DNA from: a virus
Virus record (IMG/VR): IMGVR_UViG_3300021371_000109
Location: 1 to 22,235 of that record
Length of the DNA: 22,235 nucleotides
Reading direction: 5' to 3' (one strand)
Of this stretch, positions 5,658-17,618 are shown in pieces. The notes under the pieces were generated by a model that was not told the DNA's origin, did not search any database, and saw only the letters and a program-made list of their open reading frames with translations. The position numbers and the translations under genes were made by a program. Numbering within the stretch: the first letter of the stretch is position 1; every line of letters starts with the position of its first letter.

Positions 5658-6153
5658 TTGTTGTAAATTTTAGTAGTTCTTCAACATCTAATTGATATGC
5701 TTTTATTATGTCTTTGTCTAAATTAGTAAATGCTTTTTTAAATGGCTTTGTAAAAAACAAACTTGGTTTAATACCATTGTTATAAATACTTCTTGCTATC
5801 ATAAATTGTAAAGACTTTCTTGATATGAATTTACCATCTTTACCTCTTACACCTTTTAAACCTTTTCTTACTATCCACTTATCCATTTTACTTGGAGGTG
5901 GCATTTTATTTGTATAGCTATAAGGTGTGTTATATTTCTTTTTTATACCACTTACACCCTTGTCTTGGAATACACCATAATCTTCCATTAAGAAACTTAA
6001 AGAGAAGCTATTTGGACTTACGTTTATATCGTAGTCTAAACTGTTATAAAGTGCTTTAGAACTATTCTTTTTACCTTTTGTTAGATTCGTTCTTGATTGC
6101 TGTATAACATACTTTGCAAATCTATTCAGCTCTTGTTGTACATTCTTTAACAT
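5644..6153 (-). CDS. HK97 gp10-like head-tail connector/tail component
   Basis: A 169-residue basic protein with features of the HK97 gp10-like family: an N-terminal helix with 'ARY/AKYVIQQSRTNL'-type residues, a Ser/Lys-rich 'TGxLxxSL'-like segment (KNSSKALYNSLDYDI, about residues 29-43), a beta strand followed by 'EDYGVFQDKGVSG' at about 57-69, and a C-terminal 'PSLFFTKPFKKAF'. The 'YGxFQDxGxxG' motif is the strongest cue. Family members act in joining heads to tails or completing the tail tube. It overlaps its neighbours by 7 and 14 bases, which suggests translational coupling within the tail operon. Confidence 0.7.
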   Translation of the reverse strand: MLKNVQQELNRFAKYVIQQSRTNLTKGKKNSSKALYNSLDYDINVSPNSFSLSFLMEDYGVFQDKGVSGIKKKYNTPYSYTNKMPPPSKMDKWIVRKGLKGVRGKDGKFISRKSLQFMIARSIYNNGIKPSLFFTKPFKKAFTNLDKDIIKAYQLDVEELLKFTTNGNN

Positions 6154-6602
6154 ATATTGATATCGTTATTTACAAGAACATCAAATGTCATTGCCCATCC
6201 AGCTAATTCATTTTCAAACCTATCATAGAAAGGTTCTAAATTTGGTGTGCCATCTAACTGATATAAATCTTGGTGTAATGTACCTCCTCTTAATACTTGT
6301 GCTAATTTATTAAGTACTGCTAATTGAGTATTTAATATGTCTTGCTCATTATCATTACCTCTAAAAATATCTACTGTTGCTTCTTTCGAAACATCAACAA
6401 TATCCATAGACAAAACAGATAAACTGAAACGTAATACATTATCTTCGTTATTTACATTATTTACTATTATGTGTGATAAAGGAAACATTGTTTGTTTACT
6501 TAAATCAATCTTTGTGATATCTCCAGTTGTTACATTATTAACGTTTACATCTGATAATAATTGATTCTTTATTGTTTCCGTTACTTGATAAAAACCCTTC
6601 AT
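6147..6602 (-). CDS. Putative tail completion/tail terminator-like protein
   Basis: A 151-residue soluble protein beginning MKGFYQVTETIKNQLLSDVN and ending in a 'GWAMTFDVLVNND'-like strand. The central part contains 'FRGNDNEQDILNTQLAVLNKLAQVL', where a polar loop leads into an amphipathic helix. The mixed alpha/beta pattern, size and place next to the gp10-like gene fit tail-completion or tail-terminator proteins, but no diagnostic motif is present. Its ATG (6602-6600) shares a base with the TAA stop of the -1 frame of the upstream chaperone gene, not with the zero-frame stop 83 bases upstream. That supports the -1 frame being translated to its end. Confidence 0.5.
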   Translation of the reverse strand: MKGFYQVTETIKNQLLSDVNVNNVTTGDITKIDLSKQTMFPLSHIIVNNVNNEDNVLRFSLSVLSMDIVDVSKEATVDIFRGNDNEQDILNTQLAVLNKLAQVLRGGTLHQDLYQLDGTPNLEPFYDRFENELAGWAMTFDVLVNNDINIC

Positions 6603-6856
6603 TAGAATTTACTTTTTATTTGTTTTGCTTCCAGCTCTGCTTTCTCTTTCATAAATGATAACATTGTAAAGCATTGATGAATATTTAATTTAGTGATATC
6701 TTCAAATCTTGTAATATCTCCGTTAGCGAGTCCATAAATTGATTGATACCAACCCCATTTGTTTCCGAAATTAGCTGCTCTTGATAAGCCTCCATCTCCG
6801 CTTGATTGTTGGAATAAAGTATCGTATGCTTCGACAGTTCCATTCCTAAATTGTAA
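6602..6856 (-). CDS. -1 frame extension of the tail chaperone (gpGT-like)
   Basis: This is the downstream part of a predicted -1 frameshift product; the whole fusion would run 7338 to 6602 and have 245 residues (161 from frame zero plus 84). After the T run the -1 frame reads LQFRNGTVEAYDTLF, later 'NKWGWYQSIYGLANGDITRF', then 'TKLNIHQCFTMLSFMKEKAE', and ends at TAA 6604-6602. The segment has no ATG, GTG or TTG before the internal ATG in 'FTMLSF', and the upstream TGA in this frame lies well before the T run. The KWGWY-containing part can therefore hardly be made without frameshifting. The Trp-rich and 'LSFMKEKAELEAK' sequence looks coding and resembles C-terminal chaperone domains in related phages as I remember them. 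The stop overlaps the next ATG, as elsewhere in this operon. Confidence 0.65.
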   Translation of the reverse strand, partial: LQFRNGTVEAYDTLFQQSSGDGGLSRAANFGNKWGWYQSIYGLANGDITRFEDITKLNIHQCFTMLSFMKEKAELEAKQIKSKF

Positions 6857-7338
6857 AAAAAAAACAAAGAACCAATTGCTGCATCTAAAGGCATATCTTT
6901 CATCTTCTCTGGATTCTCTACATTGTATTCAACTATATTGTATTTGCCAGATTTCTTTATTTTTATTTTTCTGTACAATACATTCATTGCAATGTGCATA
7001 TTGTTCCAATCACTTGCGCTACCATCCAAGTCTACATATTCTCCTAAACTCATTTCGTCCAAGTCTGGTATGAATCCATATTGAACACCATTCATTGTAA
7101 ATTGCTCTACTCTTTTTGGTGTTTGACTTAACAATTCATTCAGTATATCTATAATAGCAGTAACACTACTCATCTTTAATTTGTAGCTATCACTTAAAGG
7201 TATTCCACAAAATATTTCTATCATTTTAGCATTTAAGAAATTACCCTCTGGATTATCTTCTGCTATCTTTAAGAACTTTTGATATTGGCCTAATGTAACT
7301 TCACTTAATGATGTTGGTACGTTTATTTCAATCTTCAT
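6685..7338 (-). CDS. Tail assembly chaperone, zero-frame product
   Basis: A 217-residue soluble acidic protein starting MKIEINVPTSLSEVTLGQYQ. The N-terminal 'VPTSLSEVTLGQYQKF' segment and central 'LDEMSLGEYVDLD' resemble a Bacteroidetes phage family placed before the tail genes. I infer it to be the lambda gpG-like tail assembly chaperone from position, size and the second open frame behind it. Residues 159-161 are FFF, encoded by a run of ten T. From there a -1 frame stays open for 84 more codons and carries coding-like sequence. The zero-frame tail after the T run ('NGVGINQFMDSLTEILQDL') also looks genuine, so both frames may be used. The start is the ATG at 7338, 20 bases after the preceding small gene. 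Confidence 0.65.
   Translation of the reverse strand: MKIEINVPTSLSEVTLGQYQKFLKIAEDNPEGNFLNAKMIEIFCGIPLSDSYKLKMSSVTAIIDILNELLSQTPKRVEQFTMNGVQYGFIPDLDEMSLGEYVDLDGSASDWNNMHIAMNVLYRKIKIKKSGKYNIVEYNVENPEKMKDMPLDAAIGSLFFFYNLGMELSKHTILYSNNQAEMEAYQEQLISETNGVGINQFMDSLTEILQDLKISLN
6855..6864 (-). promoter_or_regulatory. Predicted slippery site: run of ten T in the tail chaperone gene
   Basis: The coding strand reads TTG TTT TTT TTT TAC, with ten consecutive T. The in-frame heptamer T TTT TTT fits the X XXY YYZ rule for -1 ribosomal slippage. A run this long could also cause RNA polymerase slippage. A shift here joins FFF to LQFRNG in the -1 frame. Confidence 0.6.
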
Positions 7339-14670: not shown

Positions 14671-15111
14671 TTAAAATAAAAGTTGTTGTTGTTTTATCTT
14701 TTGTTTGTACTCTAAATGATTTTCAACACTAAAAAAATGTTTTACTTCTTTATCATTACATAATATAAAAAAATCCTTTATATAATTAGATTTTTCAAAT
14801 TTATTTTTAACTTCATTAAAAGGTTTTATTTCATATATTTTTGTTTTGTTATTTAATATATCTCCTTTTTCGTCTAAATCATTAATAACTATGTAACAAT
14901 AAAAATCTTTTTTAGCAAATAAACTATAAGCTCTTAAAGATGCTATTGATGTTTTATCTGTTGATTTTTTATGGTCAAACATAATTTTAGTTTTACACCC
15001 TATTTTATAAAGTAAACAATCAATGTCTATTATAGTTCTTTTTTTATCTAGCAAATTACTTAATTTAGCATTAAAACAATTGTTTTGATATGTGTATTTA
15101 TAATCTTTCAT
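14671..15111 (-). CDS. Second possible PD-(D/E)XK-like protein
   Basis: A 146-residue Lys-rich protein. 'TIIDIDCLLYKIG' (D29, D31) followed by 'KIMFDHKKS' (D46-H-K48) is laid out like the D-x(n)-(D/E)xK core of Holliday-resolvase/nuclease-like proteins in which 'DIDxLxYD' precedes a '(E/D)xK' strand. A helix follows ('DKTSIASLRAYSLFAKKDFY') and then strands. The C-terminus ends KQQQLLF, which loosely resembles a clamp-binding peptide. The assignment is weak and the protein could be something else. It begins 12 bases after the ABC-GNAT gene stop and is likely co-transcribed with it. Confidence 0.45.
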   Translation of the reverse strand: MKDYKYTYQNNCFNAKLSNLLDKKRTIIDIDCLLYKIGCKTKIMFDHKKSTDKTSIASLRAYSLFAKKDFYCYIVINDLDEKGDILNNKTKIYEIKPFNEVKNKFEKSNYIKDFFILCNDKEVKHFFSVENHLEYKQKIKQQQLLF

Positions 15112-15123
15112 ATTTTTTATTTT

Positions 15124-16317
15124 TTATACTCCTTCGATGTCAAAGATACTGATTTGATTTTGAGCAACTTCTTTGTAAGCATTTGCATTAAAAGTTAATA
15201 TATCTATATCATCTTTATGTTCTTGTCCGATATACTTATAACTTTTAGTTACACTTTCTTTTCTTAATTTCAAACCATTATCTTTACCTTCTTCTAAAAG
15301 TTTTTTGTTTGTTTTTTTTATTTGATTAACATTATTATTTTCATTTGTTAAAAGCCAATGTTTATCATTTCTAACCATACCTTTAAATAATGATGGATTT
15401 GATGTCTTTATGTATAGTGTTTTTTTGTCTTTTTTATACATAGAGCCAAAAACATTAAGTATTTTAATACCTATGCCTAAACCTTGAAAGTCTGGTAAAA
15501 CAACTAATCTACTAACTCTAAAAGCATTTTGTATTGTTCCACTTGGCATTGGTAATATAGCCATAAAAGCAACTGGTTTATCATTAAACAACATTAAAAA
15601 ACATTTAGCTGCTTTGTTTAAATCTTGACTTAAATAATGATGTTGCTTGAATATATTCCAAGTTTCATATCTACATCGAAATATCTGTAATTCAATTTTT
15701 GGTCTTTGCCTTCGACTTGACGCTCTCTCAAGACGCCCTTTTAATGGTGAATAAGTCCAATCTGGTTGTAACCATTCCATAATATCGAAATGACAAGATG
15801 CTAGTATAATTTTTTTATTGTATTTTCTAATGTATTTTTGTAAAGCATTGCTCATTGCTTTTGCTACATCTCTATCTACAACAGACGTAAACTCATCAAT
15901 CAATATAACATCATTTTTAGATGATTTACCGACTTTATAAGCAAGAGATGCTCTGTATTGTTCTCCATTACTTAATAAACTAAATGGTCTTAACCAAGTT
16001 GGAACAGAAGATAAACCCATAGCTGATAATAAAAAAGTTGCTTCTTGTGGCTCTAACCAATCAAAATTGCTAATCAAAGGCTTTTCATTATCAAATTCAT
16101 CTAAAGTTAAATCTCCAAATTCTTTTAATAAAGTTGTTTTACCAGTACCAGAACCACCATAAATAACACCAATATTCCAATCAAATGTTTTACACTCACT
16201 AAAATTTATTGGTATTTTAACAGTTGTTTCTTCTTTGTTTTGTATGTCAAACGCTTCATATACATATTCTGTATATTTGTCATTTATAATTTTGTTTTTT
16301 CTTTCTATATATTTCAT
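15124..16317 (-). CDS. ABC-type ATPase fused to a GNAT (Mom-like) acyltransferase domain
   Basis: A 397-residue two-domain protein. Residues about 45-195 are an ABC ATPase: Walker A GGSGTGKT (54-61), signature LSNGEQ (115-120), Walker B VILIDE (137-142) and H-switch H176 in 'ASCHFDI'. There is no transmembrane domain, so it is not an ordinary transporter. Residues about 205-325 form a GNAT fold: 'FKQHHYLS' (223-230), a strand at 'PVAFMAILP', and the acyl-CoA loop 'LPDFQGLGIGIK' (274-285) with QGLGIG. The HHYLS and GNAT combination recalls Mu Mom, a DNA-adenine modification enzyme, as well as ABC/GNAT fusions in other phages. Residues about 325-397 are a charged tail ending in QISIF-DIEGV, like a sliding-clamp motif. 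The substrate is unknown; DNA base modification is the leading guess. It sits between the RecA-fold ATPase and two nuclease-like genes. Confidence 0.75.
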   Translation of the reverse strand: MKYIERKNKIINDKYTEYVYEAFDIQNKEETTVKIPINFSECKTFDWNIGVIYGGSGTGKTTLLKEFGDLTLDEFDNEKPLISNFDWLEPQEATFLLSAMGLSSVPTWLRPFSLLSNGEQYRASLAYKVGKSSKNDVILIDEFTSVVDRDVAKAMSNALQKYIRKYNKKIILASCHFDIMEWLQPDWTYSPLKGRLERASSRRQRPKIELQIFRCRYETWNIFKQHHYLSQDLNKAAKCFLMLFNDKPVAFMAILPMPSGTIQNAFRVSRLVVLPDFQGLGIGIKILNVFGSMYKKDKKTLYIKTSNPSLFKGMVRNDKHWLLTNENNNVNQIKKTNKKLLEEGKDNGLKLRKESVTKSYKYIGQEHKDDIDILTFNANAYKEVAQNQISIFDIEGV

Positions 16318-16329
16318 TGTTTTTGTTTT

Positions 16330-17181
16330 TTATAAATCTATATTATTATCTACAAATTCTGGCAAGCCTTTTTCGTTTATAGTAAAACTAAACGTTTCAA
16401 AACTTTTGTTTCTGCTTCTTTTACATTCAACAGATATCCATCCTAGATTTACACCATTTTTTTCTAACTTAATTTGTGTCTCCGCCTTTTTCTCGAGGAA
16501 AGACCCCAAATGTCCCGTTGGTTTGTCGGAACCATAATTACTATGTATAATTGTAACAATATGACACTGTAACTCATCTGTCCAACTCATTAACTTTTGT
16601 ATAGCTTCATTACATTGTTCTAAATTATTTACATCAGCAACTAAATCTGCAATACCATCAATAATAACTAAACCAATATCTTTACCTTCTAACTTGTCAT
16701 TTAAGATGTAATCAATAAAATCAACTCTATCTTTATAACTCATTGTTCTTAAAGCATAAGTATAATAATTATCATCATCTGGCATATCATTCATTAGTAT
16801 TGGTCTACGGAATACTTTTTGACAATGAAATTTTCCTTGCTCTGTATCAAAATGAATTATCTTTCTGCCTTTTCTATGTCCTTTTAATAAGCCACTATAT
16901 TTATTTGAATCACTTTGATATGCTGATACAAGTAAACTAGAAAAGAACGATTTCATACTTTTTGGTGGAGCTTGTATAAAGCTGAAATTACCATAAGTAC
17001 CAATTGGTATATGATATTCTACAACATCTCCATTATGATTTACATCGTTATAAGTGCCACAACTTATTGCAACTGGTGGATATTTAACATCTTCACTAAT
17101 ATCAACATAGGCATCATCCTCCATAAGTTGCATAAACATTCTCTTTGTATCATCATCTTGTATTTTTGTTTTGTTCGTCAT
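16330..17181 (-). CDS. RecA-fold ATPase / RepA-like helicase (AAA_25-like)
   Basis: A 283-residue RecA-fold protein. Residues 71-78 (APPKSMKS) are a degenerate Walker A, with K77 and S78 in the expected place and a Ser/Met replacing the usual Gly, as often seen in Bacteroidetes phage homologues. 'FDTEQG' (111-116) is a likely catalytic-Glu motif, LVIIDG (171-176) is Walker B, and 'VTIIHSNYGS' (209-218) is a sensor-like strand. A 'GSFLEKKAETQIKLEKNG' segment follows. It resembles RepA/DnaB-like hexameric replicative helicases of the AAA_25 group, and might load or unwind DNA for host polymerase, since no polymerase is encoded here. The start codon lies inside the previous gene. Confidence 0.75.
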   Translation of the reverse strand: MTNKTKIQDDDTKRMFMQLMEDDAYVDISEDVKYPPVAISCGTYNDVNHNGDVVEYHIPIGTYGNFSFIQAPPKSMKSFFSSLLVSAYQSDSNKYSGLLKGHRKGRKIIHFDTEQGKFHCQKVFRRPILMNDMPDDDNYYTYALRTMSYKDRVDFIDYILNDKLEGKDIGLVIIDGIADLVADVNNLEQCNEAIQKLMSWTDELQCHIVTIIHSNYGSDKPTGHLGSFLEKKAETQIKLEKNGVNLGWISVECKRSRNKSFETFSFTINEKGLPEFVDNNIDL

Positions 17182-17584
17182 CTATATATTTTTGTATTTT
17201 TTTCTTGTAAAATTTACCAAGTATATTATCATTTAAGAATTTATCATTTTCTAAAACGTTTTCGGTAAATTGTAGTTTTGTTTCATAATAACTCATCATT
17301 GTCTTGTTGTAGCAAATATATATAATTTCTCTATAACAATTTTCTATTTCCCATTTTTTACTTTCTTTATTGCTACCAGTATATTTCATCCAGTTACTTT
17401 CAACGTAGTCAATTCTTTTTCTTTTATATCCTTTTAAAGGTGGTCTTGTACGTTTATTAAGCAATATCTTTTTACCAATGTAAACTTGTTCTGTTCGTCT
17501 GTTAAGTATTCTGTAAACAAACCCAACTGCTTCTGCTGGTAAATCTTCTCTTGATTTTATTCTTTGTCCTTTATAGTTCCACAT
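17153..17584 (-). CDS. GIY-YIG-like nuclease family protein
   Basis: A 143-residue basic protein, taken from the ATG at 17584 (a TTG two codons earlier would also read). Residues 21-24 are GFVY and 34-39 are VYIGKK, matching the two strands of a GIY-YIG domain in the variant 'GFVYRI...VYIGKK' typical of phage proteins. 'ESNWMKYTGSNKE' (62-74) follows, as in the family. The remaining helical part ends in a Lys/Asn-rich tail. A homing-type or repair endonuclease is likely; the catalytic Arg and Glu cannot be assigned with certainty. The ATG lies only 5 bases after a strong terminator-like hairpin, so its expression may be reduced or regulated. Confidence 0.65.
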   Translation of the reverse strand: MWNYKGQRIKSREDLPAEAVGFVYRILNRRTEQVYIGKKILLNKRTRPPLKGYKRKRIDYVESNWMKYTGSNKESKKWEIENCYREIIYICYNKTMMSYYETKLQFTENVLENDKFLNDNILGKFYKKKIQKYIDDEQNKNTR

Positions 17585-17588
17585 AGTC

Positions 17589-17618
17589 AAAAAAAAAGGA
17601 GGCTTTTACACCTCCCTT
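17589..17618 (-). terminator. Terminator-like hairpin between SSB and GIY-YIG genes
   Basis: On the minus strand the arms AAGGGAGG and CCTCCTTT form an 8-bp stem with one G-U pair, around a TGTAAAAG loop, and a run of nine T follows. It begins 5 bases after the SSB stop and ends 4 bases before the next ATG. It should stop much of the transcription into the helicase and nuclease genes unless read through or antiterminated. Confidence 0.8.

Follow-up and report, generated by a model that had tools for sequence, protein, structure and literature searches.

A phage ABC ATPase-GNAT fusion protein with a clamp-binding-like tail as a candidate DNA base acyltransferase

A marine flavobacterial phage, represented by a 22,235-base IMG/VR virus record (this whole stretch of DNA is called the window here), encodes a protein in which an ABC ATPase is followed by a GNAT domain. 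On balance, comparison of the sequence with its relatives favours reading it as a soluble, ATP-dependent acyltransferase of nucleobases, which would modify the phage's own DNA and would here be tethered to the β sliding clamp. We infer DNA as the target because ParB-like genes neighbour the ABC-GNAT gene, because the gene can occupy a position like that of mom, and because its clamp-like tail is also found on phage DNA methyltransferases. A GNAT-ABC ATPase pair had already been predicted to modify DNA by base acylation (Iyer et al. 2021, citing Iyer 2013; PMC7824862). The ParB-like partner, the mom-like position with its formyltransferase, and the clamp-like tail give this prediction new support, and the consulted parts of that paper mention neither the ParB/tail partner, nor the formyltransferase, nor the clamp tail. 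No experimental work on the fusion was found in the literature.

The ABC-GNAT gene and its domains

The initial annotation read an ABC ATPase fused to a GNAT domain at 15124-16317, and this region is indeed one intact 397-aa open reading frame, which matches phrog_11143 over nearly its full length (E 1.3e-143). The plus strand of the same interval contains many stops. Conservation was scored in 85 aligned relatives with identities down to about 30%, and Walker A, LSNGEQ, Walker B, the H-switch, QGLGIG and HHYLS, all listed in that annotation, are each present, their key residues invariant or nearly so (Table 1). The list was thus correct, but the strand was absent from it and the C-terminal QISIF had been overlooked.

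Table 1. Features of the ABC-GNAT gene and its immediate neighbours in the window
Feature	Position	Strand	Basis
146-aa downstream gene, function unassigned	14671..15111	minus	conserved mostly at +1, 28 related loci
ABC ATPase-GNAT fusion gene, 397 aa, ATG start	15124..16317	minus	ORF; phrog_11143; AlphaFold2 model
Clamp-binding-like C-terminal motif QISIF, residues 388-392	15142..15156	minus	motif match to β-clamp consensus
GNAT domain, residues 200-365	15223..15720	minus	GNAT-only model, fold matches, Pfam Acetyltransf_1
Acyl-CoA loop QGLGIG, residues 278-283	15469..15486	minus	Q278, G279 invariant; G281, G283 >=90%
HHYL, residues 226-229 (HHYLS 226-230), probable acceptor-side motif	15631..15642	minus	Y228 invariant; H226/H227 >=90%; aligns with Mom HY motif
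ABC ATPase domain, residues 1-199	15721..16317	minus	model and VIA-align; profile matches to ABC ATPases
H-switch His176	15790..15792	minus	invariant, n=85
Walker B VILIDE, residues 137-142	15892..15909	minus	D141, E142 invariant, n=85
ABC signature LSNGEQ, residues 115-120	15958..15975	minus	L115, S116, G118 invariant, n=85
Walker A GGSGTGKTT, residues 54-62	16132..16158	minus	G54, S56, G57, G59, K60 invariant, n=85
AAA_25 ATPase gene, upstream, 12-nt gap; slot held by ParB-like genes in other lineages	16330..17181	minus	Pfam AAA_25 E 7e-8

Structure prediction, proposed as a check in the initial annotation, agrees with the fusion: the AlphaFold2 model, built with the 85 relatives, has two folded domains (mean pLDDT 89.7) and a low-confidence C-terminal tail. 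It contains no transmembrane helix, as expected from the earlier reading that the protein lacks a membrane segment. Pfam Acetyltransf_1 (E 1e-4) and ATPase_2 score above their cut-offs and ABC_tran (E 0.001) falls under its own. NCBIfam returns weak matches to ABC-F ribosome-protection ATPases and to RimI, and PADLOC returns nothing beyond weak generic ABC matches.

The N-terminal domain has every hallmark of the ABC ATPase superfamily, namely Walker A, an LSGGQ-like signature, Walker B with the catalytic Glu, and the H-switch, along with a D-loop, SVVD, at residues 145-148. The initial annotation drew a parallel with Rad50/SMC, UvrA and MutS-like ATPases, but the fold is closest to transporter-type nucleotide-binding domains and ABCE1, not to Rad50/SMC. 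VIA-align of residues 1-202 gives Z of about 15 to MJ0796 (1l2t) and PmtC (6xji), the match to MJ0796 having Z 15.1 and rmsd 3.3 over 176. Only about 50 residues separate Walker A from the signature, with no long coiled-coil insertion of the Rad50/SMC kind, and assignment as an ABC transporter fails in its turn, since the model lacks transmembrane helices and none of the recognised neighbours is a permease.

A model of the GNAT domain alone (pLDDT 85.7) finds its closest solved folds in RimI, Naa50 and NatA/Ard1, which are generic and N-terminal protein acetyltransferases; in VIA, the comparison with RimI/Naa50 gives Z of about 13 and rmsd of about 3 over about 135 residues. The conserved QGLGIG, a [Q/R]xxGx[G/A] loop within a GNAT fold, places the domain in the GNAT superfamily. 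Its description as Mom-like stands only in part. Aligned by hhalign to the Mom family, the GNAT profile matches in the HHY region only (probability 71%, E 3.7e-5, 47 columns), but the Mom family, phrog_1384, is absent among the families that match the protein at E up to 1 (Mu Mom itself, as a positive control, scores 8e-84), and the PKNSES of Mom is replaced by QGLGIG. The Mom structure, 8bv8, is not among the Foldseek and VIA matches listed, and similarity to it could still exist.

Relatives and the published family

Nonlabens phage P12024S supplies the closest protein in the databases (71.6% identity), and its record notes both an ATPase and a GNAT domain. Relatives occur in 76 phage records from many hosts, in at least 590 IMG/VR stretches, and in 432 GTDB genome stretches that are rich in Planctomycetes and Bacteroidales. 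The fused form is the rule; Lactococcus and Streptococcus phages have both parts as separate genes, and because these split versions stay adjacent, ABC and GNAT would be expected to act jointly. Salmonella phage SSU5 (3377-6521 of locus L088) and Rhizobium phage RHEph10 (2747-6858 of L089) each combine an ABC ATPase gene with a pair of ParB-like genes and a protein of phrog_886, the latter with a weak GNAT match in RHEph10. This arrangement is probably a split, diverged version of ABC-GNAT in phage-plasmids and Rhizobium phages.

Whether the architecture had been described was left undecided in the initial annotation; it has been, as the GNAT-ABC family predicted to modify DNA, and the consulted parts of that account report the pair from a small subset of jumbo phages and name Tenacibaculum phage pT24 as a carrier (PMC7824862). 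The pT24 protein is 52% identical to the window protein over residues 3-365, which span both domains, and the window protein thus belongs to the published family. The accession that the paper prints, QAX98348.1 (PMC7824862), was not found in the part of the pT24 record that was examined. In that record (L082, 4992-6164), an in-frame stop lies inside the GNAT domain and the sequence is annotated as two genes; this split reading frame may be a broken copy, a case of read-through or a sequencing error. COG2401, described as an ABC-type ATPase joined to a domain predicted to be an acetyltransferase, presumably has the same architecture. No paper using COG2401 as a name was found in the literature, and the terms searched for in the MetaGPA paper (PMC8670742) are absent from it.

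Neighbouring genes

In the window, genes for an ERF annealing protein, an AAA ATPase and an exonuclease lie near ABC-GNAT, and the gene's placement in a phage early operon, read from its sequence context, is plausible. A gene for a SegE-like GIY-YIG homing-type endonuclease (17153-17590, minus strand) adjoins the AAA ATPase and ERF genes. A search around ABC-GNAT in the window found no modification gene, whether ParB, formyltransferase or any other, and none of the 75 close relatives in its clade that have an upstream gene has ParB at -1.

Across distant lineages, a survey of genome neighbourhoods, another check proposed in the initial annotation, yielded a recurrent partner. Of 71 genome loci, 45 have a ParB-like gene directly upstream of ABC-GNAT (position -1), as do 9 of 18 phage records; ParB matches at other positions are few. 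The ParB-like gene often overlaps ABC-GNAT by 4 or 22 bases, and its product matches Pfam ParB_N and phrog_498, which consists of ParB-DNA-methyltransferase fusions. The C-terminal segment of these ParB-like proteins, about 40 residues, also exists by itself in a Bacteroidales clade, encoded by a small ORF immediately before ABC-GNAT, suggesting from sequence that it may be the piece that contacts ABC-GNAT. In this clade a PurN-like formyltransferase then follows ABC-GNAT (14 genome loci and two phages); these ParB and formyltransferase counts are rough, since the profiles were built from few sequences. The formyltransferases of loci L094 and L095 rest on record annotation and Pfam, the ORF-based count for phage records being 0. 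Arthrobacter phage EastWest (L093) has an annotated DNA polymerase III sliding clamp gene (5801-7036) a few genes from its ParB-ABC-GNAT pair.

A mom-like position was seen in two phages. Porphyromonas phage009a and Pseudomonas Komp_PAO1_1 are Mu-like, with Mu-type transposase, MuB and Gam genes, and in both ABC-GNAT comes after the tail genes, a placement comparable to that of mom in Mu; the formyltransferase comes next.

The C-terminal tail

Bacterial clamp clients carry QL[S/D]LF or, more generally, QxxLF (PMC12309361), and the β-clamp-binding motif is usually C-terminal (PMC9690074, PMC4549789). The QISIF of the window protein, with I in place of L at position 4, is a variant of this consensus, identified as a motif match only. 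Other tails in its clade are QISLF, QISMF, QLSIF and QTRLF (within NQISLF, NQISMF, NQTRLF, etc.), which fit the pattern Q-x-x-[LIM]-F. A clamp-like tail ends 68 of 109 non-redundant ABC-GNAT proteins versus 8 of 779 neighbouring ORFs, counts uncorrected for shared ancestry. The 146-aa protein encoded downstream had been considered as a further case, and was discarded: besides the window copy, only a few close relatives have its QQLLF, which is not conserved across the family.

These loci also hold 805 other ORFs of 130 aa or more, of which 9 end in a clamp-like motif: six have DNA-methyltransferase motifs, one is Mom-like, and two are of the 146-aa family. The enrichment for methyltransferases has a P of 4e-9, which overstates the evidence, as ancestry is ignored; the argument is carried by the pattern of tails and not by the exact P value. 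Within the amino-methyltransferase family, collected with a query that itself bears the motif, a slightly relaxed form of it is present in 54 of the 61 distinct tails. Tails of phage DNA methyltransferases include QQLTMF, AQIRMF, QQRLF and NQTELF, and small enzymes of this kind with clamp-like tails were seen at L109 (7967-8602), L061 (145-816), L025 (3625-4224), L111 (8917-9558) and loci L283-L362. The Mom-like protein (L145, 8074-8709; phrog_1384 E 2e-36) has the tail NQTKLF and shares its locus with an ABC-GNAT gene; most other Mom-like relatives do not have a clamp-like motif.

The ParB partner and the tail never coincide. ParB or its tail domain occurs in 63 loci versus 52 with the clamp motif, none has both, and 46 have neither, again without correction for ancestry.

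A proposed mechanism and its alternatives

In the mechanism that we propose, binding of ATP would close an ABC dimer on DNA and bring a base before the GNAT domain, there to receive an acyl group from CoA on an exocyclic amine. The group might be acetyl, or glycyl, which is the group proposed for Mom. In the window clade the tail would bind the host β sliding clamp and thereby hold the enzyme where phage DNA is being synthesised, for modification of the new strands, much as PCNA recruits DNMT1; in other lineages, the DNA-binding, ParB-like product of the adjacent gene would take the place of the clamp tail. Most simply, the purpose would be to block host restriction. A bolder version, which we consider possible but doubtful, is that phage DNA-modifying enzymes as a class, among them ABC-GNAT, amino- and C5-methyltransferases and at least one Mom-like protein, gained the same C-terminal host-clamp tag and thus mark phage DNA during replication, and that ABC-GNAT makes an undescribed acylated base. 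Where the PurN-like formyltransferase is present, this base may carry a formylated glycinamide, a guess made because PurN normally acts on a glycinamide.

The ATP-driven DNA modifier suggested in the initial annotation agrees with the prediction in the consulted parts of PMC7824862, and gains support from the ParB neighbours, from the mom-like position and from a tail like that of DNA methyltransferases. Counting against it are the transporter-like ABC part, the window's own lack of a nearby modification gene, the 46 loci with neither ParB nor clamp motif, the I at position 4 of the window's motif, and the protein acetyltransferases that are the closest GNAT folds. The main rival, which we judge unlikely, is built on these last: ABC-GNAT would acylate a host or phage protein, such as RNA polymerase, a ribosomal protein or a replisome component, with the ABC part as a regulatory or docking switch. 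RimI, Naa50 and NatA/Ard1 as fold neighbours and the weak NCBIfam matches would suit such an enzyme, and a phage GNAT, Rac, acts on RNA polymerase according to the consulted parts of PMC7824862. However, fold does not set substrate, and DNA is favoured by the methyltransferase-type tail, the position like that of mom and the ParB partner. The neighbours are DNA proteins, which also weighs against acylation of an RNA such as tRNA, in the way that TmcA makes N4-acetylcytidine, and no RNA-binding domain or association with tRNA genes was seen. The top Foldseek matches are all ABC folds except TmcA (2zpa), which aligns over both domains, and the GNAT profile weakly matches RNA cytidine acetyltransferases (E 0.014 and 0.034), but the TM-score is 0.26 and the ATPase class is ABC, not RecA-type helicase, leaving this reading quite improbable.

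The tail invites another reading, that its main function is to sequester the host sliding clamp and so to stop host replication. The toxin SocB provides a precedent (PMC9690074), and the window protein does end in a clamp-binding-like motif. Yet many relatives lack the tail, and conservation of the ATPase and acyl-CoA sites reaches further than that of the tail; this reading is very unlikely. Least credible of all is a plain transporter ATPase or an acetyltransferase of small molecules. The transporter-like ABC fold and names in databases, such as 'ABC transporter', point that way, but the model has no membrane segment, no permease was recognised next door, and the two domains are fused or side by side in phages of very different hosts.

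The published prediction thereby becomes testable as to which base and which acyl group are involved, whether ATP is needed, and whether phages use the host clamp to couple modification with replication. A new enzyme of DNA acylation would extend the known anti-restriction chemistry and might serve as a DNA-labelling tool.

Relation to known systems

The closest counterpart is the GNAT-ABC family of Iyer et al., which has the same domains in the same order and includes the pT24 protein; the consulted parts of that paper place it in a few jumbo phages, whereas here it is seen hundreds of times, in small phages, in prophages and at host loci. Mu Mom (phrog_1384; 8bv8) belongs to the same GNAT superfamily, has an HY region that aligns with HHY, and has a comparable late-genome position in Mu-like phages, but it has no ABC domain and carries PKNSES where ABC-GNAT carries QGLGIG. 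TmcA and NAT10 likewise have an ATPase followed by a GNAT domain and perform ATP-dependent base acetylation, and the Foldseek alignment spans both domains. Their substrate, however, is RNA, the TM-score is low, and their ATPase is a RecA-type helicase, not the ABC type of ABC-GNAT. Finally, in the Dpd system of 7-deazaguanine DNA modification, DpdA works with the ParB-like ATPase DpdB (PMC12839542). Although DpdA is a transglycosylase and its chemistry is different, Dpd resembles the ABC-GNAT loci in pairing a ParB-like protein with a DNA base-modifying enzyme.
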